Source: Triplophysa rosa (lineage: Eukaryota > Chordata > Actinopteri > Cypriniformes > Nemacheilidae). From it: a stretch of DNA of 64,000 nucleotides. Each line of letters begins with the position of its first letter. The first letter of the stretch is position 1. Below, in pieces: positions 1 through 64,000 of this stretch. Below the pieces are notes generated by a model that saw only the letters and a program-made list of their open reading frames with translations, ran no database searches and was not told the DNA's origin. The DNA lies in contig NC_079910.1 of assembly GCF_024868665.1 (NCBI RefSeq), forward strand, positions 14,322,902-14,386,901, read 5' to 3'. The translations under genes and the position numbers were made by a program.

Positions 1-1052
<1,052 letters not shown>

Positions 1053-2638: not shown

Positions 2639-3661
2639 TTACCAACTGACAGGACGCCTGAGAGCGTAATGCACGTGAAGGCTGTAATACAAGAGGAGTT
2701 CACTCAAGTATTGAGGAGCTAAACCGTGTAGGGCTTTATAGGTAATAAGCAAGATTTTAAAGTTAACGCGATGCTTTATAGGTAACCAGTGCAAGGTTGA
2801 CAGAACCGGGCTAATATGTTCATACTTTTTTGTACGTGTAAGAACTCGAGCTGCCGCGTTTTGGACCAATTGGAGTTTTTGTAATAAGCCTGCAGGGCAA
2901 CCACCTAACAGTGCATTACAGTAGTCTAGTCTTGATGTCATGAATGCATGAATTAACTTCTCTGCATCTGACATTGACAGCATATGACGTAGTTTAGATA
3001 TATTCTTAAGATGGAAAAACGCAATTTTACAGGTGTTGGCGACGTGGCTCTCAAATGACAGATTACTATCGAATAGAACGCCAAGATTCTTTGCTGACGA
3101 CGAGGGTTTTATGGAACATCCGTCAATAGTTAAACAGTATTCTTGGTTGTTACTTATAGCAGTTTTCGGTCCAATAAGTAACACTTCCGTTTTGTCCGAG
3201 TTCAGTAATAAAAAGTTGTTACTCATCCAGTTTTTTATATCGACTATGCATTCCATTATTCGATGGAACTGCTGTGTTTCATGAGGCTTCGAGGAAATAT
3301 AAAGTTGAGTATCATCAGCATAACAGTGAAAGCTAACTCCGTGTCGCTTTATTATATCTCCTAGAGGTAGCATGTATAATGCGAAGAGCAGAGGCCCTAA
3401 GACTGAGCCCTGTGGTACACCGTACTGGACTTGCGATTTGCGTGACACCTCATTGTTTATTGCTACAAATTGAAAACGGTCGGATAAATAAGATTTAAAC
3501 CATTTCAAAGCTATTCCCTTAATGCCGACATAATTTTCGAGTCTATGTAGGAGTGTGCTGTGGTCAATGGTATCGAATGCAGCACTAAGGTCTAGCAGCA
3601 CCAATAACGAGATACAACCTCGGTCAGACGCCAATAGCAGATCATTTGTAACTCTGATCAA
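2639..3661 (-). pseudogene. LINE reverse transcriptase fragment
   Basis: An open frame of 340 codons matching the RT palm of L2/CR1-clade LINEs. It has LLDLSAAFDTIDH (catalytic Asp motif A), YGVPQGSVLGPLLF (motif B) and CYADDTQLYIS, the YADD active-site box (motif C), followed by the thumb region and a C-terminal HWLPIKHRVNFKIL block. RT homology continues upstream to about 3965 but in another frame, with a break at the A-run near 3840, so the N-terminal part of the polyprotein is disrupted. The endonuclease domain is absent. It would copy LINE RNA into DNA at target sites, but this truncated copy is very unlikely to be active. Confidence 0.9.
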
Positions 3662-4081
3662 AGCAGTCTCTGTACTGTGACATGCTCTAAATCCAGACTG
3701 GAATTCTTCATTGATGTCATTCCTTGGGAGGAAGGAGCATAATTGAGTTGAAACTACTTTTTCCAGAACTTTAGATATGAAAGGTAGATTCGATATAGGC
3801 CTGTAGTTCCCTAGTTCTCTAGGGTCGAGTTGGTTTTTTTTGCTTTATAACAGCCACCTTATATGCTTTAGGCACATGTCCTAATGTCAGAGATGAGTTA
3901 ATAATACTAAGAAGACAATCTATGATTTCTGGGAGAATCTCTTTCAGTAGATTTATAGGTATAGGGTCTAGCATGCATACAGTACATAAAACTGTATGTT
4001 GTTGGCGTGACCCAGTATATAAGTATACTGTGTAGCGTTATGGCCACTGTTAATAAGTACATGTTTTGGCTTTATTAACAG

Positions 4082-14599: not shown

Positions 14600-15264
14600 G
14601 TTTTTCCAGTACGCAAAACAGCTTTGCTGACGCATGTGAACGCAACCGAGGGTGCACAAATAATCCAGCCGTGTTCTGCTCAACGCTAACACGTTTTAAT
14701 GATTTTAGTCCGATCTAGTAACAAACGGTGACGGTTTGCAGCTATTGAATAACGTTAGCCTAGTGAACAGATGGTCGCACTACAGGACACGAGGGTCGAT
14801 CGCAGCCAAAGTTAGACACTGCGAAGCGATAAGGGCACAAATGCTGCGGCACACACTACTCCTGAGTACATCACACTACACGCAGCGATCAGCCGCAACG
14901 CTCGTTATGATGAGAGAGAGCAGCGACGCGGAGGAATGGAGATCAAGATGAAAAATCGTTTCTTCAAGGTATAAAATCTCATCGAACTCTTCTCCGGCAT
15001 GTCTTTTCCGCATACCGACAGCGCGATTTGTTTGTGTGTGATCCATCCCGAAACGGAACCGGTTTCACCTGATCCACCGCTATGGTCGCGAACGCTGTGT
15101 TAGCTGAACAAAGGGCATCCCGGTGTTTATCGCGACGGACGTACGGTGAGGGACCCGCACACGTTTTTCTTTACAACGTGAACCTTTTTCGCTTTGCCTA
15201 GCCGTGCCGTGTATTCTGGCTGCCCTGGCGCCCGTCACCGGAGTCCTGGGAAGAGAGGGTCGGG
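14600..15264 (+). promoter_or_regulatory. CpG-rich promoter and 5' UTR region of srms
   Basis: CpG density rises sharply from about 14600 and stays high into the first srms exon, against an AT-rich background. No TATA box is obvious. The start site cannot be placed, but this is where the promoter and 5' leader must lie. The A/G at -3 and G at +4 around 15265 give a good start context. Confidence 0.55.
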
Positions 15265-17808
15265 ATGGAGAACTGTTGTCGCAGCTGTATGCCATGTCTG
15301 AAGAGGTTGTGGGACTGGATATGGCCCGAATTGTTTTACCCGAACGTCGCTCACCCGGCCGAGATCCGCACCGTTTCAGGTGATATCCGGGTCCCGGCGC
15401 CTAAGAAGAAACAATCGCAGCTTTACGCGGCTCTGTTCGACTTTGTAGCCCGTAGCGAGGAAGAGCTTACTGTGAAGGAAGGGGACAAACTGTCCGTCAT
15501 AGAAAAGAGGGGAGATTATGTACTTGCCAAGAAGCTGACCGGGTCCCTTGAGTCCGGTTTGGTCCCTGCTAATTATGTGGCCCTGGTACAGGACGAATTC
15601 GCAAACTATAAGTAAGTCCAGAGCTTGCTTTATGGGCTCCATTTTATATGTTTATATGAGTGTGAAACGTTTCACAGTTAAATATTTATGATCAAGCGAT
15701 ACGTGAGTAGCCATGTAGTGCACACTTTTAAACTAGAGTTGAATGAAGCTTGCTGCATGTGCGCGCGCACAGGTAACATTTTGCACGCAGGTAACGTGTT
15801 TTCAAACAAGTAGCCTACCGCATACACATAACTCAGTGTTCGTGCACTGTCGACTATTTCACGATGGGCTTGACTGTTGTTCACGAGGACAATGAGTCTG
15901 TTCAGTGCTGTCATGTAGCCTACTTGTGTTTTGTTGCTGTAACGGGGTCAGGCCATTAGAAACATGCCAATGAGCACCGGCGAGTACGGCTTGTTGTGGC
16001 TTGTGTACGGGCGGCAGGCCTCTCATGCACCTGTCACCTGGCGTAGTTTCACTGAAACTGACGCATCATGGGATTGTGCTAAACAAGCATGTGCGCCCTG
16101 CCGCACCCATGTTGTACATGGCAACATTTTGCATGACGCGACAGTGTGTACTGTGACGAACCGAACGCGGTTAGTGTGGGCAAAATATGAGCCTTGACCT
16201 GACCAATTTTATACATGCAAATAAAGTGTATTTCAGTTAAGGTTTTGAAATTTCACAGACGTAGAAATAAAAAATATGTTCCCCTATTAACTGTCAATAT
16301 ATTCAATCTTTAAGAGCCTATATGTTTGAAAAGATTTCAAATAATACACGGTTATATTACAATATAGGCCCTATTGAATAATACATAATAATACTTACTG
16401 CTTTTCATAGATTGAAAAATATAAGCACTTTAATTTAATGAATGTAGATGGTTATTTAATATATGGCATTATATTTTCCAGTATATTCCCCTATGTTTAT
16501 TTTTTTCATAAAAGTGTAATAAAAACATTTATATGTACCGTATATAAACATCTACATAAATAAATAACAAAAATCATAATTTTATAATTTTGCTTAAATA
16601 TATATATATACATATATTCATACATATGGCTTGCAAATATGTCAAGTTATAAATAATGTACCGTTAAGATTGCATTTTGACATTATTTTCGTAATGCACA
16701 CTGCCCACATTAATGCATATGGACATTTTACTTTTGATCTTTTTATCATTTCCATTTTCAATGGTGATTCTCATTTTTACTACTGTTCATGCAGTAAATA
16801 AATACCTCAATACAAAGACAGTAAAATGATCTCATTAACATGTATACAAGTACTTATAATCATTGTTGTTCACTACAGTACAGAATACGATTTTCTGTGT
16901 TATTCAATTGTGAGATTAGGGAGCGCACAATTCACAACTGATATTCAATTCCTATCACAATGCAAAAATATAGTCTAAAAACGTTTCACACTCGTTGAGA
17001 AGCATATAATGTCCTATCAAGAAATTTGCTCATTGAGTGAGGTGTTCATTCATTCTCTGTGTGTCTGTTTACAGATGGTACTATGGGAATATAAACAGGC
17101 AAAAAGCTGAGAAGCTGCTTCTGGCTCCTCAGAATAAAACTGGTTCCTTTCTGGTGCGGATCAGTGAGAGCCACAGTGATGAATATACCATCTCCGGTTT
17201 GTTTTCTCTTTTCTTCTCCCTCTGTTTCACGCACTCTGAAATTTGAATGCCTGGAGGTCTCAGCGCTTGCCATGTTCTTATACATCATCTCCATCTTTAT
17301 CTTCTCTTTGCACGTCTCCAGTTTTCTGTGTGATCTGACAGCACAGAGCCTCTCTCAAAACGGATCGTATGGTATTTTTTTGCATGAATAATGCGCTTGT
17401 TCTCCATCCTTTCAAACCACACAACTTCTCTCTGTTCCTTTCATTCTTTCTGTTCCTTAATGTCTCTCCCAGAGTTTGTAACATCATATTGCTCCTCCAT
17501 GTTCAGCTGACTAAGCATTTTGGAAGATAGCTGTAGCGAGTAGTTTGTGTTTAAACCTGAGCTAGTAAACCATTTTCAGCGTTTGTATTTATAGAGAAAA
17601 ACATGGTTTTCTTTTCTTTACAGCCAGAAGCGAAAATAGTGTCTTCCATTTCCGTATCCATCGTTCAGCCGTTGGTGCTTACTTTGTATCCGACAAGATC
17701 TCTTTTGCCACTCTGGATGAGCTTATCAAATATTACCAGAATAATTCGAGAAGTCTGGGATGTCCCTTAGACCAGCCATGTGTACAGCAAGTATGACTCT
17801 TTTATTTA

Positions 17809-17839
<31 letters not shown>

Positions 17840-20800
17840 GCAAAAACATCTGTATGATTCATTGACATTACTTACCAGCCTAATTTTAGACATCAGTTTT
17901 TGTCCTCAAGAGACAAACGTTCATAAATAGGCATTACATTATGGGTATCAGTTCTGCTTAAGAGATCCCATTAGCGATATGGAGCAGTCTGTTTCTAGTG
18001 TAGTGGCCAAGGGCAGTGTCTCTATTGAGCCTGCATCATATAGCCTACTGTGGTTTCTAAATCTTTTACTAATTTTAAAGGAATAGTTCCATTACAAATA
18101 AACATGTTAACATCATTTATTTACTCTCATGCTGTTCAAAACTGGTATATGATTCTTTTTTGTGTGGAACACAAAAAAGGTATTTTGAGAAATGTCTCGG
18201 TGATTTTGTGGTTTTCATGCAAGGCAAGTCAATGGGGAACAACATTCTTCAAAATATCTTCTTTTGTGTTCTGCCGAAGAAATAAAGTCATACAGATTTG
18301 GAATGAAATGAGATCATTTTCATTTTCGATGGAACTAGTTGATGAACTAAGGTGTGTAGATAAACACATTTAAACGTGGTTACTACAGATTCTTATTAAA
18401 CAAAACATATGTACACCCTCTTTCTCATCCTTGAAGGAATTGATATTGTAATTTTATTCAATAACTAACCCTAAAGTCAAAGGTCAATAAGGTCTTTCCA
18501 GCCAAAAATCCAGCCCTAAGCCTAACACAATCTGATTCAAATGGTTGATTCAAATGTTTTTCCTCAACCAAAACTTGTACATGACAAAATCCAAGTCTAG
18601 CATTTTATGTTGTTTCAGTACTAAAAAATAGTCTGATTGACTGGTTTTAAACTACGCATAGGTCACATTTGTGAGAAAAGTTGTTGCATTGTGATATAGC
18701 GTTTATGAAAATGTAATTATCATTGTGTCATAATTTGTGACACTCACGATTTTTATTTAATCCTCTGGTAGTGTTCGGTCGCTTTTGACTAAACCTTTTT
18801 ACGCTTCTATTGATCTTTTATTTTACTTTATGGAATGATACAAAACATAGAATCTGTCTAGAGTCTGTCTTGTTTGTAAAAAAATGATCATGAATGTGAT
18901 TATTTAAGACTAAATGATCCTATAGTCCCACGTGTTGTCCTCACAACAAACAACCAAAATATGTTACATTTGTTGCATTTTAGGTGTTTAGTCACTTTTG
19001 ACTGTGAGGAGCATCATTGTGACCCCTGAAGTAGCAGAGGGTTAAACAATAAATTTACATTTAATGCAAACTATTAAAACATTCTCTCTGTTTCCTTCTA
19101 AACACTTTAACATACCTTCATACTACTGTAGATACTAACTACAGAGTTTGGTTATATATGAAGCCACAGTAAAGTGGAACAGCTTGTTCAGCTAAAAATA
19201 AACCCTTCTTCACTCTAATGCCTTGATTTCAGTGTTCTTAGAAATACTTTTCCAACCCATTCTTATCTTTCTCTCATGTTTATGCAGTCAACACAATCTA
19301 CTCACTAACTACACATTCACGTTGTATAGTGTAACGTACCCAGTGTTGTAGTCAATACTGTGCCCTGTGTTTAGAACAACATGTGATATCAAGTAGGAAA
19401 GATTCTTGGAACAGATCTCTTGTGACCTTTGTGTGTCCACGTGCAGAGGGAGCTGTTCGACATGGAACCGTGGGAGCGTCCGAGGGAGGAGTTTCAGCTT
19501 ATCAAGAAACTCGGGGAAGGACACTTTGGAGAGGTTTGGGAGGCTGTCTGGACCACCAAGAAGCAGAAAGTGGCTGTCAAGATGCTCAAACAAGGTGTGA
19601 TGCTGCTTCACTTTCAGCTTCTTATGCATTTACACTGGACAGTGGAGTGCACTGCACAACCGCGGAAAAATATAAGAGACCATTCCAAATTGTCGTTTAA
19701 TCAGCATTTCTAGATGTATTGTGGCCAGTCCAGTGTCTGTTGAATTTCAACTAAATTAAACCTCAGGAGTGACATAAGGTCATCCAACAGCAATGTGAAA
19801 GACTGACAGCATGACAGAAAAATCTAGATTATCACTTTTGAATTTTTTTAAATACATGTATAAATATGACTGTTGTATTGCTTAAAAGTGAATCTGAACT
19901 TGTTTTCTTTGCAGTATTTGAGGTCTGAAAAAATACAGAGCATCTTTTCTGTTATTTTGACCTGTTTCTCCAGTTTTCTTTTTCTGCAAATAAAAGCAAA
20001 TGGAAACAATATTTTTATTTCAAATTTCGCAAAAATATTGTTAGTAGTTCACAGAATGAAACAAAAATGATGGTTTTACCTAAACACAAAGTAAATTCAG
20101 TAAAACAGAAAAGGGTCTTTGAAATGGTCTCTTCATTTTTTTTCTATGCCCATATGTTTGAAAGCACTACGCTACATTATGCTGAAACATGAGAGCAGTA
20201 AAGAAAGAGGTGGTGAAATCTTGCATAAATGCAGTGTAATCTAAGCATATGGGTTTTGTAATTTTGCTGCGTGAGCAAAAATTCTGCTGCACCAACTGGT
20301 TGAAATTTTATGCGACTACACCAAAAGTTTTTTATGCTTCGGCATACTGTATGAAGCCTCTCTTTTAGGATTTGGAAATGTAAAGTAACCTCTGGACATA
20401 AAAAGTTAATGCCTTAATATCTGAGCATATTGGGTTTTCTTGCCCACAAAATCTTCTTTCAATAATTATTTTATAAATTTAGTTCAATTTGATTTGATTT
20501 TAGTGCTAAAGGAATTGCAGAACTACATACATATCAAAGTTATTTTTGTTTTTCACACTCCTAAAAATAAAGTTGCTCAAAAGGGGCTTTCACAGCACTG
20601 CCATAAAAGAATCGTTTTTACTTCCCCAAAATAGAGAAAGTAAAAAAAATGTCCGTACCAGTAGGACACCATAGACACAATCATAGACAAAATCAACAGA
20701 ATTTTGAAGCTATGGCTCTCTCATTGTGCCCTGTAGAGGACACAAAGTTGGATGAATTTGTCAAGGAGGTTCACGCACTGAAGAATCTGCACCATCCTAA

Positions 20801-23800
20801 ACTGATTCAGCTCCTGGCTCTGTGCACACGAGGAGAACCCGTCTATATCGTCACTGAGCTCATGATTAAAGGAAGCCTGAAATCATACTTGTCTGGTAAG
20901 TGCTTTCATTTTCACATACTCTCTTCCCTATTTCAATAATGGCTTGTACAGACACCTGCATGTTTATATAAAAGTATTCCTTTGTAGTGTCAAATAAAAG
21001 CACTGTATATACCATTATACTTAAATGCATGTACTTTTTTTACTTTGTTATACGGTCACGTCAGCGCTGATGACCTTGTTTTATTATTTGACTTCCTTTT
21101 TTATTTTTGCCTTGTTATCAAAAGTAAATGAAATAATTTAACAGAGCGTCATATCTTTGACAATGAAGTCACTTCCAACAGTCTTTAAAAATGTCTTTTA
21201 GTATCTTGTTTACTATTTTGATCAATTATTGAATCACTAACACTAGAGAACATTTGCATGCTTTTTTTGTATTTAGTTGTGTTTATATTTAGTTGGAATT
21301 GTAATAGTGAACTGTAACATATGGGAAGGGCCACAGGAAGACCGCAGAACTCACAACAGCACAAAAGCCACAGAATTGAAATGAATTTTAACCATTTGCA
21401 AAGTCCTAAACCGGCCCAACCTCCTGCATGTTTCTTTATTAAATATTTTGTTTCATTTTATGATGCCTTGTGCTACCAGAAAGGGTCAATTGAACACATT
21501 TAAACATGTTTTAAATCTATTCTGCACAATTACTATGAACAGAAAACTAAAAAAATCAAAATTCAGGTGGACGTTTTAATTTAACATCTTACTGATTTCA
21601 TATTTAATTAATATTGATCATAATGTTATACTGGGGTCTAAGACTATTAATGAAACAGCTTGTTTTGCATTTTAACACTATTTTATGTGTATTTATTTAC
21701 TTAATTAATTGCAAACCTTATTAGATAACATCAATATATTAACATAGATTTTAGAACAAAAATTGTGTTTCAAACCTGTAAAAATGTATTTTTTCCGATG
21801 AACACAGAGAACGATATTTGGAAAAATGTTAGCAATAATTTAGTTCTGGGTCATTATCCACTACCATTGTAGACCAAAATATGGTATATTTTTTGTTCCG
21901 TTGATCACACAATTAGATATTTTGAAGAACGGAACACCTTTGACTACCATTTACTTTTTCCTACTATAGTAGTCAACGATGTTCCAGAACTGAAAATTGC
22001 TAACATTCTTCCAAATATCTTCCTTTGTGTTCAGCAGAACAAAGTCATTTATACAGGTATGAAATGACACGAGGGTAAGTAAATGACGACAGATTTTTCC
22101 TTTTTGGGTGAACTATCCCTTTAAAGACTGCATGCACTCGGGCTGTCATGAACTCCTGTAAAACCTGATGATTCCGTATGATCTGACAATGTTCAATTGT
22201 TCTGTTAAAACATTTACTGGATGTCCCTTGTGTCTTCATGTAGCACCTGAGGGTCAGGTGTTGACCTCTGCTCACCTGATCTACATGGCTGGTCAGATAG
22301 CAGAAGGAATGGCCTATCTGGAGGACCGACACATCGTCCACAGAGACCTGGCTGCTCGAAACATCCTGGTTGGAGATGACCTGGTGTGTAAAGTGGCTGA
22401 CTTTGGTCTGGCGCGCATCATAAAGGTAAAAACACCCAGCAAAGCAGCCTCTGAAGATCTGTATGTGGGAAGTGATGTATTGTCAACAGCACTTTGACCT
22501 TTATTTTACAACAATTCTGCTTTTCGCTTCTGCTCTAACTTGTGTAGTACTTTTGCTTATATTTCAAATAGCTCGTGATGTTCCTCATTTGTAAGTCATT
22601 TTGGATAAAAACCTTCTAAATTAATAAATGTAACTTAAGCACGCAGTAAATACAGAGACAATTATAACAATTTAAAGGGATAGTTCACCCAAAAATGGAA
22701 ATTCTGTCATCATTTACTCTAGGGATGGGCGATATTATATCGTTTGCGATATACCGGTAGAAATTCCCCACACGATAGGAATTAGTCTTCCCGCGATATA
22801 AACGATAAATTCTAGTTGATGACGTATTTCTTTGTGAGACCCATTCACAGCTCATATGTGAAGCGAAAACGGGTATAGCGGAGGGCGGACGTGAAGCTGA
22901 GAAAGAGTTTGCACTAAAACACGAGCTCTAAATCTCGTTTAGGTTGGCACTGTAGATGCATCCGAGTTCATGTTTAGTTTCACTTTCGTTTAATTTAATT
23001 CATTTGTTAAGTATTCGTTGATAGTCATAATGCGTTACACCACAACATTTAGTTTGGCTAAAAGTATTTATTTAAACATTCGTTAGATGTTATGCGCGCG
23101 TGCACAAATTGTTTAATATGATTTCTTGCCTGTTACATACAGGATGAACGGAGCGTCCCGTGCGCAGTTCGCGCCCACATGTGCTTTCATAGCGACACAG
23201 TGCACACAGCACTGCTGCCTGTTTACATACAGTACAATGCGAGTTTGTATTACGTTATTTTAAATACGTTTATGAGCGTATAAAAGCTTGGATTATTTCA
23301 TTAGATTTCTTTTATCCGCATTTTCTGTTCTCTTTCTGTAGCGCGAGTCATAGACAGATTCAGTTGCTGTGAGAAGAGAAGGTTCACACAGTTCAAGAGA
23401 GAGTGATTGACAGCGTGATGCGATCGATCGTTTCCGCCCAACAATAGAATATATACAGTTTTAGGTATGACATGTGTTTATTGAACTTTAGTTCATTTAA
23501 CTTTTCTTTACCACAACCTTTTGAAGTCGAATCTCACTATTATATTTTATATTTACAAAAATACTGTAGGTATATTTTAGGAGCTGTTTGTTTTGGGGTG
23601 AGTTTTACTTTTTGATAATATTTGTTTTTCTGAGGGTCTAGACTAAATGCAGCTACTATCACTTGACGCAAAATACACGGGTGGATGGCATTATGGATAT
23701 ATCGTCATTTTTATCGTTATCGCAAAACAAATACCAGGAATTATCGTGATAGAGTTTTAGGGCCATATCGCCCATCCCTAATTTACTCCCCCTCAAGTTG

Positions 23801-26190: not shown

Positions 26191-26704
26191 GTTTGTGCAG
26201 TTCATCATTTGTTTGGGAAAAATTGATCTGAGCTGGATATTAGCTAACATAGCAGACCATAAGCTATTGTATTCCCCGCTAAAAGAAAAAACAATAGAAA
26301 TATTTGCAAAAAAATTCTAATGGATTTAATAGTTATAATGGGAACTGTATTGGTTTTAATGGAAACTATATAATGGTCTCTGTGGGTCTCTACTTGGGTG
26401 GGATGTTATGAAAGCTGAAATAAGCCCAAAATGCACTTCATAAAGAAATTGTGTAATGGTTTTTTAATGGTAAACAGCTGATTTGGTCTTGTATTGTTTG
26501 TTCGGCAGGTGTTACCACCCTCAAATAAAAGGATTCAAGTTTAGCCCACTGAACTTTGTGTCATTGTGCACAGGCGTGGTAAAAATGCGGAAGATTACAC
26601 ACTTGCATCAGTTCCCTAAAGGCACGCTTCGCCTTCTTCACATCGCCGTCCAGCAGAGCAGGTGTCTCTCCAGAGCGCGCCTGCAGCGCGGGCACTGTTA
26701 TCCC

Positions 26705-33140
<6,436 letters not shown>

Positions 33141-45479: not shown

Positions 45480-45551
45480 TCCCTGGTGGTCTAGTGGTTA
45501 GGATTCGGCGCTCTCACCGCCGCGGCCCGGGTTCGATTCCCGGTCAGGGAA
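45480..45551 (+). tRNA. tRNA-Glu (anticodon CUC)
   Basis: A 72-nt cloverleaf. Acceptor stem TCCCTGG pairs with TCAGGGA; the D arm contains the A-box-like TGGTCTAGTGGTTAGG; the anticodon stem CGGCG/CGCCG encloses loop CTCTCAC with anticodon CTC at 45513-45515; the T arm has GGTTCGATTCC (B box). Discriminator A at 45551, CCA not encoded as expected in eukaryotes. A TTTTT run at 45558-45562 serves as the RNA polymerase III terminator. All stems pair, so it looks functional rather than a SINE relic. Confidence 0.97.
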
Positions 45552-56408: not shown

Positions 56409-57496
56409 AGCTTGTCATTTTCTACAGGCAACTATTTCCATGTGTTTATAGTACTTCGCTTATTCGCCCTAGCAAACTTTTTATTTTTATTTACGTTTTT
56501 GTTATTTCTTTGTTTTCTTATACATATACTACGTGTATTGCTCATAATATTGTTATTCCATAAAAAAACTGGCAAAAGTAAAGAAATGAAAAAAAAAATG
56601 CTTATACATTTTACATTTATTTTACACGACAAAAGCATGCCATAATAGTACAAAAATGGACTCTTGCGTTCATAAATCATTTAACTGTTATAGGCCAAAC
56701 TAAGCACAGCTTTTATTGTGCAGGCTTTGTTTTATTCTGGATGTGCAAACAAACTGGCAAAAATATACCAAGTAGTTTTAAGGCACATTTAAGGATTTGA
56801 TTTATTTAAAAAATCAAATATATAACTTTGATATAAAGGAAACTGATGAATGTCGAATGAAACATTAATGACCATCTGTAAAATCTGTAAATGACAGTGA
56901 AGTAGAAAAACTAAGACAGAAAAGATAACGTTAGTTTGTATTTATTTATTTAGCCAAAAACTCTTCTCTTTCACAAAGCATAACTTACCAAGAATCAAAC
57001 TGTTGGAGTCTTATAGATCACTTCGCAAAATGTAAACACTGGTCCAGAAGTGTCTCGTTTCATTTGTATTTATTTTTTATTTTAAACCTTAAAGATATTT
57101 GTTTAACATTTGATTCGGTTGTTAATGTTTTGTTGGTTGTGTTTTGTTCAAAATGTTGTGCAGTGTGAAAAAACTGAAACACAAAGTTCTTCTGGATCAG
57201 CATTACGTCTTCTGAAGTTGCCTATAATGTATCTAATACAACACTACTGTAAAACACTCGATTTTACATTAGCCATCCATCTCATGACAACCATATCTAA
57301 GAAGGGTCCAGTAAATGTAGATTTGGGATGGTTTACTAATCTAGAGGGGGTGGGGGGGGGGGGGTACTGATCTTATCTTGGACTTATATTATCTTATTAT
57401 CTTGGAACAACCGATGGTTCTGTAGAATTGCCATTGACACTGCCAGTCAATAGAAGACAAACTAGACATAATTGAGATGCGCCTCATTAAAATGGA
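56409..57496. other. Spacer and probable TRIM 3' UTR
   Basis: AT-rich DNA below the last TRIM stop codon; minus-strand AATAAA-type signals near 57070 and 56940 could end the transcript. A poly(G) run lies at 57347-57364. No other feature recognised. Confidence 0.4.
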
Positions 57497-60400
57497 TCAC
57501 ACAGGGTTTGCATCAGGAAACGGAGGAGATATCCCACTGCTTTGAGCCGAGCGGTCACTTCCTTTTGGCGAGAGCGTTGAGCCAGAGAAAGAGAAGCTGA
57601 GATGCATAGACTCACTGGTGACCGCCTGCGGCTGCTGTCCTTCTAGAGCAGAGCTCACAGGTGTGCCAGTCTGGAGAGATTTGGTAGAGATGACCACAAA
57701 GTAAGCAGAGATTTTATAAGAATGAATAAAAACAAACCTTGGAGCCACCAGAAGTCTGGCTGCTCGAAATCGTTTTTCTGTTGATGTGGGGAGACTAAGT
57801 TAAAATGGGTCAAAAAGCTCTACAGTAAATTTTTGCTAAGCTTAAGGTACCCAAGTATTCTAATTAAAGTTTGTCTTTTCACGTTAAACAAGCCGAGTGT
57901 AAAACAGCAGAGTGCCAGTTAGAACGATGTCATTGTTTAGTTATGATCTATGTTACTCCCAAACAATAAAAGAAATAAAGGATAAGCTGAGCAAAGAATC
58001 AGTTGAGAAACATGGCAGGATGTTCAAAACACTGGTTCAGCATTATTAGGATTGGGCTGGTACCTGGTGACTGTGCCTCCTCACCGCCACTATATACAAA
58101 TGAGACACTGAATGCTTCCCCACACTCGCTGTAGGATGACCAGAAAGCCCAGGAAGTAAAGGATGAGGGTGACAGCCTGAGGAAAGGTGGAAATGAAGAT
58201 ACGCAAACACTGATATTTCAATAGAAATATTACAGGAGATGACCTAAGACCTAACCAAACTGTGATGCTGAATAAAAATGAAACTGAGTTCTCAACGAAT
58301 GGAAAGTGATAGCAATGATGACCATGATGCTGGTGACTTGGCTAAGCAGTTCAGCAGATTGTGGCTGATGATGGTCATGGCCAGTTGAAAAATGTATACA
58401 TAACATGTTTTTTTACCGTGAATGTTTTTAAACTTCAGATGCATATGTAAAGCGATATGAATGTACCTGCTGGGTGCTAAACCCATGCCTCTCACACACA
58501 TGCTCCTTTCTGACATCTGAACAGATGTCTGCTTGTTCCCATGTATTCTCAGTTGTTTCTTGGTTATGGTTTCTCATGTCCGAGTCCTCTAATTTTAGAT
58601 CCTGGTCTGGTTCAGGATCAGGTTCTGGGGTTGGCACTGGTGCAGGTTCACACTCGGGTTCTGGTTCATCAGGTGTCTCCTCCACTTCCTCTTCAACTGT
58701 AATGTTACCAGCATTAACTTGAAAGATTCTGGCTTAATAAGAATAACAGCATTTTTGATTGATCAGAAAAGCTAAGAAACTGGGTGTCTGATGCTCACAC
58801 ATTATGAAATCTAGCTGATGGAGCGCTCGCTCCTCTTCTTTAAAATCCACCTTGTAGTGGTCCATATTCTCATATCCAGGTTCCAGGGTCTCCAGAGTGA
58901 AGTAAGTAGAGGCTTTACAAACCCTTCAGATTAAATGAAAGATACTGTTGAATGTTAGTTCAATGTTTCTTCCACAATCATGCACATGCCAACAATTAAC
59001 AGACTTAAGCAGCCATGAGTGTTTTACAAGCTTTACATTTAAATGCTGAACAATTTAGAAAGAAAAATATTAAAGAAACATTTCTTAAATATGTTGAGTC
59101 ACTTACTTCTCAATTAGATCTTTTGAGGTCTAGAAGAAAGAAAAATGAATAAAAAAAGAGAAATATAAAAACTAAATATAAGAAAATAGACTTATAAATA
59201 AAAAAAATGTCACAGAGTTTGTGGTACCTGCACAAAAGATGCCATCTCTGGCTCTTCAATAGCATTAAGTGCTGCCTGTACCAGTTTTGAGTTTGTGTCT
59301 AGATGGCTACTGCATGTCTGCACTAAAGATTGGGTCCAGCCAGTCTTTTCCTCCTCCTCATAGGTTATTTGTTGAGTCATGATCTTACGACGTTCGTCCA
59401 GAATAGCGCTCATGCAATCAAACTTCTCACATAGAATCTGCTTTTGGATCCTGCTGTTCTCCTGTTAGAGGAACGTAGCCAACAATACTTCACATTTGAA
59501 TGACAAACGCATATATGTTAGGGCTGTCAAACGACTAATCGCGATTAATCGCATCCAAAATAAAAGTTTGTGTTTACGTAATTTATGTCGGTATACTGTG
59601 CTAATTAATTTTGTATTTATGAACACATACACATAAATGCATTTATTTTAGAAAAATATAAAATATAACAATTAATAAACATTTATTTAGAATTTAAATT
59701 ATTGGTAAATATAAATTAATACATTTAAATATTTCCTAAATATATAGACAAGTATGTGTATGTTTTGTGTTTATAAATACAAAATTAATATGCACTGTAC
59801 ACAGATATATATGATGTAAACACAAACTTTTATTCTGGATGCGATTAATCGCGATTAATCGTTTGACAGCCCTAATATACTGTATATACATGATATATAT
59901 AAAAGTAATTTCTTTATTTCAACAAACGTCCACCCAAACCTCTATGTTCCTGCAGATTTCCTCCAGCTCATTAATAAAAGCTTGGACACGGTCATTTGTG
60001 GAAACCAAGGCGGCAACTCCATCATTGAGTTCAGTCTACAAAAATAAAAAATTGAAACTAATGTAAGATTACTCTAAATGGTAAAAGATGCGAAGATAAA
60101 CTTGACCATGCAAATGTGAGCCTGGACCACAAAACCAGTCTTAAGTAGCACGTGTATATTTTTAGTAATAGCCAACAATACATTGTATGGGTCAAAATGA
60201 TAGATTTTTCATTTATGCCAAAAATCATTAAGATATTGAGTAAAGATCATGTTCCATGAAGATATTTTGTAAATTTCCTAATGTAAATATATCAAAACGT
60301 TATATTTGTGCGTGGATGCAGCAAAATTGCTTAGAAAAATGGCCGTAAACACGCCTACAAACAACGCTCAAGCTTTGGTATCTATGTAAAGCTTAGAATT

Positions 60401-62947
60401 TCAGCTTTTGGGTTCGTCTACTCTCCACAACGTCAGTGGTAAGCCAATAGAGAGCGTTAAAACAAACCTGTTTCTTCTTCAGCCTGCTACAGTGGCTCTG
60501 ATGAACAACGATTTTCTCAATATTTTGATATTCTTGCGCCCTCAGATTCCTGAGATTGAAATAGTTGTATCCAAATAGTTGTGGCCAAATATTGTCCTAT
60601 CCTAACAAACCATACACCAATGAATCTCAATTTCGAGAAAAATTGACCCATAAGACTGGTTTTGTTGTCCAGGGTCACAAATATCTTCAGGATCTTACTT
60701 TCTGTTGCTCATAGACATCAGATAGAGGAGTGACTTGGCAGTTCTTGTGTGCTCCAAACACCTTGCAGAGAGAGCAGGTGGGCACCTGACACGTGATGCA
60801 ATAAATATTAAGCTTCTCATCGTCATGTTCCTCACAAGTCAGCTGTGCAAGAGGCTTCGGTGGTGGCTTGGAGCTGCAGACACGTTTTACAACAAGACAC
60901 TTTATTTAAACAGGACAAATCGACCAACAACCTCATTTAGATGTTGATAACTTCCAAGCAACATTAGACGTGCTTTTTCCAATTACAGACTCTCCAGTTT
61001 ATTTGTTGTTCATAGGCTTATCCATAATCATATTCTTAAGGTAAAGGGATTCAACAATAGGCATTTCTATCATTTTTGGTTGACAAACAATGCTCTCCTG
61101 ATCTCACCTTGCAGACTCCTGCTTGTAAACATCAATGATGTTCTCCACAAGTAAATTGCGCTGCAGTCCATAAACTCCGTGGCGGTCCAGGACGACCTCA
61201 TGGCGACAGGAAGGGCAGCAGAAGCGTCCAACACCAACCTTTAAGAGAGACGGCTACAAATCTTACTCAGCATGCTGTTCAAACTGTATTTGTTATAATG
61301 TGTGTTCACTGTTTACTATTAAGAAGTCTAAAGGTTGGATAAAATGTACCCTGATAACCAGCATGACTGTTTGATCTGTCAACACCAACTCATTTGTACT
61401 TTTCTGTTTTCTCTAAAGAAATGCTTTGTCTTCCCCAGAATATGGTGCTTTTGGTTCTGAATCGGGTTAAAGGTTGATATGTTGCATACATCTGTTTCTT
61501 AGCCTGCGTGTTTGGAAACATGTTTACCCTCAGACCCTTCTGTAAACAAGTAAGGGTACTGTACATATTACACAGGGGCCACTAGATTGATTTAAAAATC
61601 ACTTTCAATATGATTCACTGTAAAACAAAATCCTGTAAAAAAACCCAGAAATTTTCTGTTAGCTGGAGCGACAGAAATATACCTTAAAATAATCGTTTTT
61701 TTCCTGTAAATTTACAGGATATAAGGATATTTATTAAATTGTTTTCCCCCTTTTTCTTGTAAATTTGCTGTCTTTTTCTGTAATTTTACAGTTTTTGACT
61801 GTATTTCAAAATTAACTGTAAAAAATACAATCTTGTTAAAAAAACTGAAATTTTCTGGCAGCTGGGGCGCCAGAAATAAACTGTAAAATAAAGTGAAATA
61901 AAAAAATTCCCTGTAAAATGACATGGTTTTCCGGTTTTTGACCGTATTTCAATAATACGTAAAAATTCAGTTTTTCTGACATTTTACGTGGAAAATCTGT
62001 AAAAATTATTCTGTAAAATTAGGTTTTTTATACAGTGTTGACAAGGCACAGGCAACATTAAACAGAGATTGCAAAGAGAAGAGTCTGAGACAGGATCTCA
62101 TGGGTGTCCTAAAATAGTCCTACACACTTATGTGTGAATTGAGAATCAGAGCTGGCTCGTTGAGAACAGTCCCCTAGCTAGCGAAGAGAATTATTTGTTT
62201 ACTGAAATGCCATGTATACACCAATGGTGCACAGACCGTGTTCAGAATTAATGTGTTCCCAGCTTGAGCTGCAAAAGTCGAATCGCACTCACTCTGGAAG
62301 GTGAACTTCGTGTGGTCAAGTGTCCAGGGCATCTGGACTTGCGCATGTACTTCTTCCATGAAACCTTCCAATTTTTAGGTGCCTCTGGATATTCCCAATA
62401 CGTTTTTGCCTTGCAAAAATTAGCCACTTGACATATACAGAGCTTATACATCAGTCCAAGAATTTCCTAAAATGCACGACACTCTATTTGCTTGCAAGTA
62501 AACTTGGGTTCATAAAAGTTACACTTTCCAGTGTGTTCCGGAAAGGACGGCATGTTATTAACGATGATGAGGTTTCAAAACTCCATTCAGATTTAGATTC
62601 CATTAGTTTAAGACTGACACCTCGAGGCATGTGCACACAAACACATGAATAGTGTTTTTATGAAGACCTAAAATGTCAATTGAGGTTTTGATTGAAAGAC
62701 CTATACATGTGACGTTATTAAAACGTTTTTGCATCTGCACATAAGCAAACTTCATCTGAGAACAAAACAACTGCCACATACACACCTGGTACAACTCGTT
62801 GGCACATTTGCGACAAAGGTTGTGGAGGCAGGGCAGTATGACCACTGGTTTTGTGAACACTTCCAGACAGATAGGACAAATAAGTTGTTTCTCAAGAGTC
62901 CCCAATGAGTCCCTGTGGTAAGAGCGCATATCCAGCGGAAGAGACAT
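57497..62947 (-). CDS. MuRF-type TRIM RING E3 ubiquitin ligase (complete, alternative 3' ends)
   Basis: Minus-strand exons: 62947-62786, 62409-62365, 61238-61108, 60873-60699, 60035-59940, 59461-59228, 59129-59107, 58923-58799 and 58696-58467, then either 58176-58090 (stop TAG) or 57670-57497 (stop TGA); 435 or 464 residues. RING cysteines/His are C24, C27, C40, H42, C45, C48, C77, C80, split over three exons. The B-box reads [16 protein letters not shown]...CSLC...H155...C158. A coiled coil (about 172-285) and COS box (about 286-331, [14 protein letters not shown]) follow, then an acidic Pro-Glu repeat tail. This order defines MuRF proteins (TRIM54/55/63), sarcomere- and microtubule-linked ligases that mark muscle proteins for breakdown. 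The N-terminus differs from all three mammalian MuRFs, so a fish paralogue such as trim101 is possible; I leave the symbol open. The second exon's donor (AAG|GTTTCA) is weak, but only this choice keeps the RING in frame. Confidence 0.87.
58085..58176 (-). other. Alternative TRIM exon coding a hydrophobic C-terminal tail
   Basis: Preceded by a good acceptor (CTTTCCTCAG) in phase with the exon ending at 58467. It codes [15 protein letters not shown] followed by [13 protein letters not shown] and a stop at 58092-58090, with a strong donor GCG|GTGAGG just after (58085/58084). Inclusion gives a hydrophobic anchor-like end; skipping would let the exon at 57670 supply a soluble Ser-rich end of 57 residues. 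Confidence 0.6.
59519..59874. mobile_element. Palindromic MITE with TAGGGCTGTCAAACGA termini in TRIM intron 5
   Basis: Both ends carry TAGGGCTGTCAAACGAnTAATCGCGATTAAT-type arms as inverted copies, and the pairing extends into GGATGCGATTAATCGCG and the AAAAGTTTGTGTTTAC segments. The flanks ATATATGT and ATATACTG are only partly alike, so an 8-bp hAT-type duplication is possible but decayed. It ends 66 bp from the exon at 59940 and begins 58 bp from the exon at 59461. Confidence 0.75.
60116..60678. mobile_element. Inverted-repeat element, GTGAGCCTGGACCACAAAACC type
   Basis: Left GTGAGCCTGGACCACAAAAC and right, inverted, GTGACCCTGGACAACAAAAC, continuing as CAGTCTTA on both sides. A repeat of this type is very common in zebrafish and carp. 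Non-coding; its right end is 21 bp below the exon border at 60699. Confidence 0.75.
61616..62036. mobile_element. MITE of CTGTAAA repeats with CACTGTA/TACAGTG ends
   Basis: Starts CACTGTAAAACAAAATCCTG and ends TATACAGTG; the inside is made of repeated CTGTAAAAT and TTTACAG units in both orientations. Non-coding, in TRIM intron 2. Confidence 0.6.
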
Positions 62948-64000
62948 GGCTGTGTGCCCTCACTGACCCAACACTTACTTCCAAACTGAGAGGGTAATAT
63001 GTAAAGCCACTAGGATTTGTTGAACAGCTCTGACCGTCTTCATATCTCTGTGCCGTCTCTCCTTGCTCTTTTCTTATATGATTTTTGAATCTCTTGAGGC
63101 ACAGGGCGGTGGATCTGCCCGTGCTTGATCTGGGCAATGGGGCCTCGGAAGCGTTGTTAGTTTGTGGCTGGAAATATATGTGCATGTGTGCGTGTGCCAG
63201 AAAGGGAAGGTGTCTGGTTTCTTGTTGGCTCTCAGTGACTCCCCCCTTTAATCAGCTGTGCCCATATCGGGCAGCCACTGGAATGCTGGGAAACAGAGAT
63301 GATGCTATGGATCCTGTTACTCCAATAATCCATGTCTACAATCTCAGGACAGCCACAGTATTATTGGAAAGGAAAAAGTGTTTATGAAGCGTGCTTTAAT
63401 ATTTTTATTTATTTATGCCTGTGCAACAAAGTTTTTTGCATTTTAGTGTATTACTTGGGGCTCAAACAAATGACCTTTGTGTTATGTGATTCACTAACAC
63501 TTAAGCCACAGTACTTTACTCGAGCACTTTTAAAAGTACTTCTACTTGTTCTATTTTTATTACAATAGCAAATGTTTTCAACATTTTTTAGTTTATATTT
63601 TATTTCACTATTTCTCTGTACTTTTACTTCCCTGTGTGCATATAAAAGTACTTATTTAGATTTCATCTTTTTGTTAACAAACACACAAACATCACAATAT
63701 TCAGCTTTCTCCACATTTATTGTACAACTGTGATTCAGATCAACTATCCATGTTACTTTTCTCAGACAGTAAATTCATGCTACGACAACATCGGACTATT
63801 TACCCAGAATGTGCAAAAGACATTCTGCACAATAGCCATATTCACTTACATGTATTTTTAACTATGTCATTTATTAAAAACAGGAATATAATAAATGAAA
63901 TATTGTTCTCATCACGGTTTTCACACTGATATTACGTTAATTTCAGAGAACATGTAGATCTGGCATGATTTTGTTTCAATGCGTTCACACACACTTCACA
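62948..64000. other. TRIM upstream region and spacer
   Basis: Above the TRIM start codon on the minus strand: probable 5' UTR and promoter (a TATA-like CATATAAG read on the minus strand near 63075), then AT-rich spacer. Short frames here do not look coding. Nothing else recognised up to the window end. Confidence 0.4.

Follow-up and report, generated by a model that had tools for sequence, protein, structure and literature searches.

Can a single MuRF-type TRIM gene of Triplophysa rosa end its protein either in a soluble tail or in a hydrophobic, anchor-like one, and what would the latter do? MuRF ligases have a role in the turnover of muscle protein and in muscle wasting, and they are regarded as enzymes of the sarcomere and the cytosol. 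The gene lies in the window (the whole 64,000-nt stretch of DNA that was analysed), where it runs on the minus strand from 62947 down to 57497. We identify it as trim101 (MuRF4), its product having a RING, a B-box, a coiled coil and an acidic end ahead of the tail.

The trim101 gene and its tail exons

Macqueen 2014 is reportedly the founding paper on TRIM101/MuRF4. TRIM101 is another name of MuRF4 (PMC5795982), and MuRF4 is reported from vertebrates other than birds and placental mammals (PMC7013991); PMC5795982, PMC7013991, PMC10048487, PMC12103069 and PMC3790703 are cited here and below from excerpts of their text. Among the best 120 homologues listed, the nearest to the window gene is the trim101 of Triplophysa dalaica (90% identity, full length), and the two group together in our tree with support 100/99. 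The tree was calculated on the first 340 residues of 52 hand-chosen rows from 166 proteins plus the window, TRIM54 and TRIM63 being left out; 20 TRIM55 rows form a clade at 100/100, apart from the other 32 rows. Under the midpoint root, which is arbitrary, a very short branch (0.0013) puts trim101 of sturgeon, bichir, coelacanth and tetrapods on the side of TRIM55, and trim101 is not recovered as a single rooted clade.

Eight exons precede the tail and encode 397 residues when exon 2 starts at 61253. Exon 1 (62786-62947) holds the start codon and the first portion of the RING, exon 2 (61108-61253) the remainder of the RING and a linker, and exon 3 (60699-60873) the B-box; the RING and the B-box both score above the Pfam cut-off. 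Exons 4 (59940-60035) and 5 (59228-59461) encode the coiled coil, which appears as a helix (153-262) in the model of the T. dalaica orthologue (P0001). Residues 207-264 of this orthologue match 4m3l, a coiled-coil structure of TRIM63, and its top three PDB matches are B-box structures of TRIM63 and TRIM54. Exon 6 (59107-59129) counts 23 nt, exon 7 (58799-58923) covers the region downstream of the coiled coil, and exon 8 (58467-58696) encodes a linker, acidic as read by eye, that is disordered from 319 to 395 in the T. dalaica model and ends in phase 0 after ...FSTQQ. Exon 2 has two acceptors 15 nt apart, at 61253 and 61238, both in frame; the one at 61238 also fits GT-AG. The acceptor at 61253 adds five residues to a RING loop, PSLLKVGVG being identical to T. 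dalaica, and the idea of a shortened RING was dropped since this start restores the five residues as in the relatives. The queries for the homology search, tree, Pfam and exon comparison used the 61238 start and lacked these five residues; the tail analyses are independent of the choice.

Between exons 4 and 5 the intron carries an inverted repeat (59514-59627 and 59766-59879, arms of 114 nt, 89% complementary) that resembles a small mobile element of the hairpin type. Elsewhere the window holds SH3 and tyrosine-kinase exons on the plus strand (15202-15612, 20607-20936, 22162-22494 and 26474-27118), the SH3 at 26474-27118 having PTK6 as its nearest among solved structures; reverse-transcriptase and DDE transposase open frames at 2642-3844 (minus strand) and 514-1023 (plus strand); and a tRNA match at 45480-45551 (plus strand; 56.9 bits, above the Rfam gathering score). 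In a synteny scan, Pfam on 29 of 608 open frames of at least 45 residues gave kinase, SH3, reverse-transcriptase and transposase only.

Exon 8 joins in frame both to 58176 and to 57670, and the coordinates and frames that a first-pass annotation had given for exon 8 (58696-58467, phase 0) and for these joins stand. The first join opens exon H (58064-58176, minus strand), with 28 codons and then a TAG at 58092-58090. Its initial 15 residues (58132-58176) form a hydrophobic run, a predicted membrane segment with a Kyte-Doolittle value of 2.76, which is followed by VWGSI (58111-58125; tail positions 18-22), a W-x-x-I sequence. The second join opens exon F (57497-57670, minus strand), with 57 residues and a TGA ending at 57497. 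The splice sites of both exons are GT-AG, and the acceptor of exon H has 15 pyrimidines in 17 positions. Possible donors of exon H follow 58085 and 58064, that is 5 and 26 nt beyond its stop. The donor at 58085, called strong in the first-pass annotation, is a good one: on a simple matrix it scores 4.1, a value reached by 5 of the 326 GTs in 57400-63000, itself counted, and the donor at 58064 scores -0.4 on the same matrix. The usual rule for destruction of a transcript after a stop is 50-55 nt; both donors fall under it, so that a transcript spliced from H to F need not be destroyed. From these signals we infer the splicing of the trim101 tails in T. rosa. A candidate exon M between H and F (57777-57738) was rejected, as it shifts the frame of F and no counterpart was seen in relatives. 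An alternative frame of H, the one read in the catfish prediction P0021, aligns with the window at 47.5% over 40 residues, a match that we attribute to the conservation of the main frame.

Conservation and homology of the tails

The hydrophobic tail proved to be conserved. Counted as a 15-residue stretch above 2.0 Kyte-Doolittle that starts within the last 60 residues, it ends 82 of the best 120 homologues and 88 of all 166 proteins retrieved, and 25 of its 28 residues in T. dalaica are identical to the window. The set includes trim101 of loaches, carps, catfish, herrings, perch-like fish, gar, bowfin and sturgeon, and TRIM55 of two sharks, coelacanth, gecko and tinamou; by hand count it includes none of the 41 tetrapod-named rows taken as TRIM101, of which 9 were placed by the tree and several are truncated models. 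Among 19 relatives picked to cover a broad range, the tail lies nearer to the window than the adjoining acidic exon in 18, the sole exception being T. dalaica (tail 89% versus acidic exon 95%); it is nearer than the RING-to-coiled-coil core in just 4 of the 19. The sturgeon tail keeps 9 of 28 residues and retains its hydrophobicity (Kyte-Doolittle 3.11). A chance hydrophobic run is ruled out by this conservation of the exon H tail. The isoform names of the relatives resemble annotation-pipeline predictions; P0002, P0014, P0029 and P0083, from contigs of 1.8-2.2 kb, read unbroken into the H tail, as would be expected of mRNA. A third alternative C-terminus (...LWLDM/LWLHD) is seen in gar, eel and bonefish trim101 and in many reptile rows, and 12 query proteins gave no match to it in the window between 64000 and 56500.

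TRIM55/MuRF2 has isoforms p60A and p60B in human and mouse, the alternative C-terminus of p60B being "very hydrophobic" (PMC3353113). The isoforms are named MURF2A and MURF2B by Pizon 2013, and in C2C12 cells MURF2B was found chiefly in myoblasts and MURF2A in myotubes (PMC3790703). The first-pass annotation took mammalian MuRFs to lack a segment of this kind; this is not borne out, given the hydrophobic C-terminus of MURF2B/p60B in human and mouse (PMC3353113, PMC3790703).

Eight trim101 tails and five TRIM55 tails (gecko, tinamou, coelacanth and two sharks; letters of the human tail were left out) were set side by side from the first residue beyond the junction, with no gaps allowed, the 13 tails being picked for spread, not randomly. 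They reach a column score of 46.8, where the null means are -14.0 and -7.0; 0 of 200,000 permutations attain this score in each of two schemes, and register 0 is the sole positive one from -6 to +6. Leu9, Leu15 and Trp19 are invariant in all 13 tails, and position 22 is I or V. Judged by this alignment, the hydrophobic tail of trim101 is homologous to that of TRIM55; the exon F tail is likewise homologous to the MURF2A-type soluble tail (FSFSWLN). The gar annotation gives trim101 both tails (P0052 and P0053) after the same upstream ...TATTATQ. The first-pass description of a TRIM gene of the MuRF type that has an anchor-like tail exon is supported. In gecko TRIM55 (P0148) the tail after SQ counts 33 residues, as in MURF2B, and the mouse p60A junction runs from CTCTCAG into ATTGG, likewise after CAG (PMC3353113). 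By these junctions, the trim101 and TRIM55 tails begin at the same kind of exon boundary. Since H and F are each homologous to one TRIM55 tail, the exon pair is, on the sequences compared, older than the split of the two paralogues; the split itself would be an early-vertebrate duplication.

A putative membrane anchor or LC3-interacting tail

We consider it probable that trim101 is the MuRF4 version of the MURF2A/MURF2B switch, the pair being divided between paralogues and the H form acting as a tail-anchored ligase. By its sequence exon 8 can join either H, the B-type hydrophobic tail, or F, the A-type FSFSWLN tail, and the H form would be the usual trim101 product. Its 15-residue helix, carried on a long disordered linker, would insert post-translationally as a tail anchor into the ER/SR or a nascent autophagic membrane, with the RING and B-box staying cytosolic and ubiquitinating nearby substrates. 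The partner E2s of such an anchored trim101 might be UBE2J1 and UBE2J2, which are ER tail-anchored enzymes. MuRF1 binds both (PMC12103069), and it is on account of this binding that we would prefer the ER/SR over mitochondria; a location set by UBE2J pairing is speculative.

Insertion of the H tail into a membrane is plausible. The predicted insertion energy (dG) is -0.37 for H and -2.59 for the anchor of UBE2J1, whereas F, at +6.02, is strongly unfavourable. A cruder fixed scale gives -3.16 for the 15-mer of H but makes the best 17-mer and 19-mer unfavourable, at +1.36 and +1.77. A 19-residue Kyte-Doolittle window in the RING, at 1.84, almost matches that of the tail, at 1.93. The hydrophobic run is short, only mildly favourable, and weaker than the anchor of UBE2J1. 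The model of T. dalaica trim101 has a folded N-terminal part, the long coiled-coil helix, a low-confidence linker and one C-terminal helix (397-426), and that of gecko TRIM55 has a like layout with a single C-terminal helix (509-545); with a pTM of 0.31 and 0.29, respectively, they were used for local features alone.

A different role, which we regard as rather unlikely, is that of a cytosolic LC3-interacting tail in place of an anchor: the W-x-x-I would bind LC3/GABARAP and bring the ligase to autophagosomes. The core of LC3-interacting motifs is W/F/Y-x-x-L/I/V, which VWGSI in the H tail satisfies, but it is preceded by the 15-residue hydrophobic run and QR, not by the acidic residues that are usual ahead of such motifs. 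W-x-x-[ILV] stands at the place of the MURF2B LC3 motif in 85 of the 88 hydrophobic-tailed proteins by script, or 86 with P0088 added by eye, and is missing in P0043 and in coelacanth P0122; the W and R right after the hydrophobic run would, however, also suit a membrane interface, and the helix runs through the motif in both models. Experiments on the homologous 33-residue MURF2B tail (505-537) interpret it as binding LC3 through a motif at 522-526, not as an anchor (PMC3790703). In that work a GST-MURF2B tail co-precipitated with GFP-LC3 and was located on LC3 vesicles, a labelling that membrane insertion would equally produce, and the MURF2B section in the excerpt of PMC3790703 describes no point mutant of the motif. 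A tail that crosses the membrane would have its C-terminus in the lumen, out of reach of LC3, so that the two readings compete unless the helix lies on the surface. Among the matches listed in the open literature we found no publication comparing them, and TRIM55 is absent from the main text of one paper on tail-anchored proteins.

Both roles could be reconciled by a shallow re-entrant or interfacial helix that leaves W-x-x-I cytosolic, one exon then serving membrane and LC3 binding. Such a helix would suit a run of only 15 residues whose next residues are also fairly apolar, and a W19 identical in 13 of 13 compared tails with I or V at 22; both models give a single tail helix, which argues against it, and we hold this arrangement to be unlikely.

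Returning to the tail-anchored ligase, we tentatively extend it further: H may be an ancient tail anchor, older than the MuRF2/MuRF4 split and parted between the paralogues, with trim55 keeping the soluble and trim101 the anchored tail in this fish, that places a sarcomere-type E3 at the ER/SR or phagophore beside UBE2J, and the LC3 binding of MURF2B would then largely reflect insertion. If it is true that one ancient exon puts MuRF4, and by homology MURF2B, in the membrane, then their substrates and partner E2s have to be looked for at that membrane, and the LC3 binding ascribed to MURF2B calls for a topology test.

The soluble exon, the paralogues and known systems

Both exons of the tail switch suggested for T. 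rosa in the first-pass annotation are present, but exon F, though in frame with exon 8, departs from the frame of its relatives. It matches catfish and characin tails up to SFSFS only; the counterpart of the relatives' conserved FSFSWLN...K-stop end (WLNPLAKKK-stop) lies in another frame, at 57555-57590 (minus strand). The soluble tail, described earlier as Ser/Pro-rich, does have its 57 open residues, but it is a MURF2A-type homologue of which the final 28 are out of the relatives' frame. FSFSWLN-type ends were seen in 8 of the best 120 homologues and in 13 of 46 further proteins from a second search, and in none of the 17 cypriniform-named rows among these best 120 (hand count); a search with the F tail alone returned 3 proteins, missed the carrier P0040 and is uninformative on distribution. 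The genome has one copy of the exon F tail region and hence no second against which to check the frameshift. Because exon F leaves the relatives' frame halfway, a working soluble trim101 form in this assembly is doubtful; the soluble form is probably broken in T. rosa, or the assembly is in error. That exon F functions with a new, longer Ser/Pro-rich end, in a true two-way switch, is improbable, for its in-frame junction, 57 open codons and canonical splice sites must be set against the survival of the relatives' conserved end and stop in another frame and the lack of F tails in those 17 rows.

Among the paralogues of this genome, a trim55-type gene on C5 keeps an intact F-type end, ...TRHVFSFSWLNLPK-stop. 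Pattern scans and short tblastn queries found no hydrophobic exon H in this gene and neither tail on C23 (trim55-type) or C15 (trim54-like), the C23 locus having one chance-looking tail-like stretch that is broken by a stop; the paralogues on C5, C23 and C15 are named by best tblastn similarity, and two long open frames on C6 and C7 lie outside the tail scan. The tails look as if they had been shared out, trim101 having an intact H and a frame-shifted F, and the trim55-type gene an intact F.

A C-terminal transmembrane domain of teleost TRIM101 has already been published (PMC10048487). With this segment and the hydrophobic tail form of MuRF2 both known, neither half is new alone; new here, as far as the compared sequences tell, are the homology of the trim101 and TRIM55 tails, their common kind of boundary, and the motif at the same place. 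TRIM13 and TRIM59 belong to other TRIM classes than MuRF. Like trim101, they are TRIM E3s with a transmembrane domain (PMC10048487). UBE2J1, a reported partner of MuRF1 (PMC12103069), is also a cytosolic enzyme with a hydrophobic segment near its C-terminus; unlike trim101 it is an E2, is no homologue, and has a more hydrophobic anchor. The published teleost TRIM101/MuRF4 is the same gene as that in the window, and the excerpt of PMC10048487 presents the domain alone, without alternative exon, MURF2B homology or LC3 motif. As birds and placental mammals reportedly lack MuRF4 (PMC7013991), fish are suited to the study of a dedicated hydrophobic-tailed form, of which MURF2B is the mammalian counterpart. 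From the MURF2A/MURF2B pair the present case differs in concerning the other paralogue, with the A-type exon frame-shifted in trim101 and no B exon found in the scanned trim55-type genes. It resembles MURF2B/p60B and MURF2A in having an additional exon that leads to an alternative hydrophobic C-terminus, with the same boundary residue, homologous tails and the same place of the motif (PMC3353113, PMC3790703, PMC7555135).
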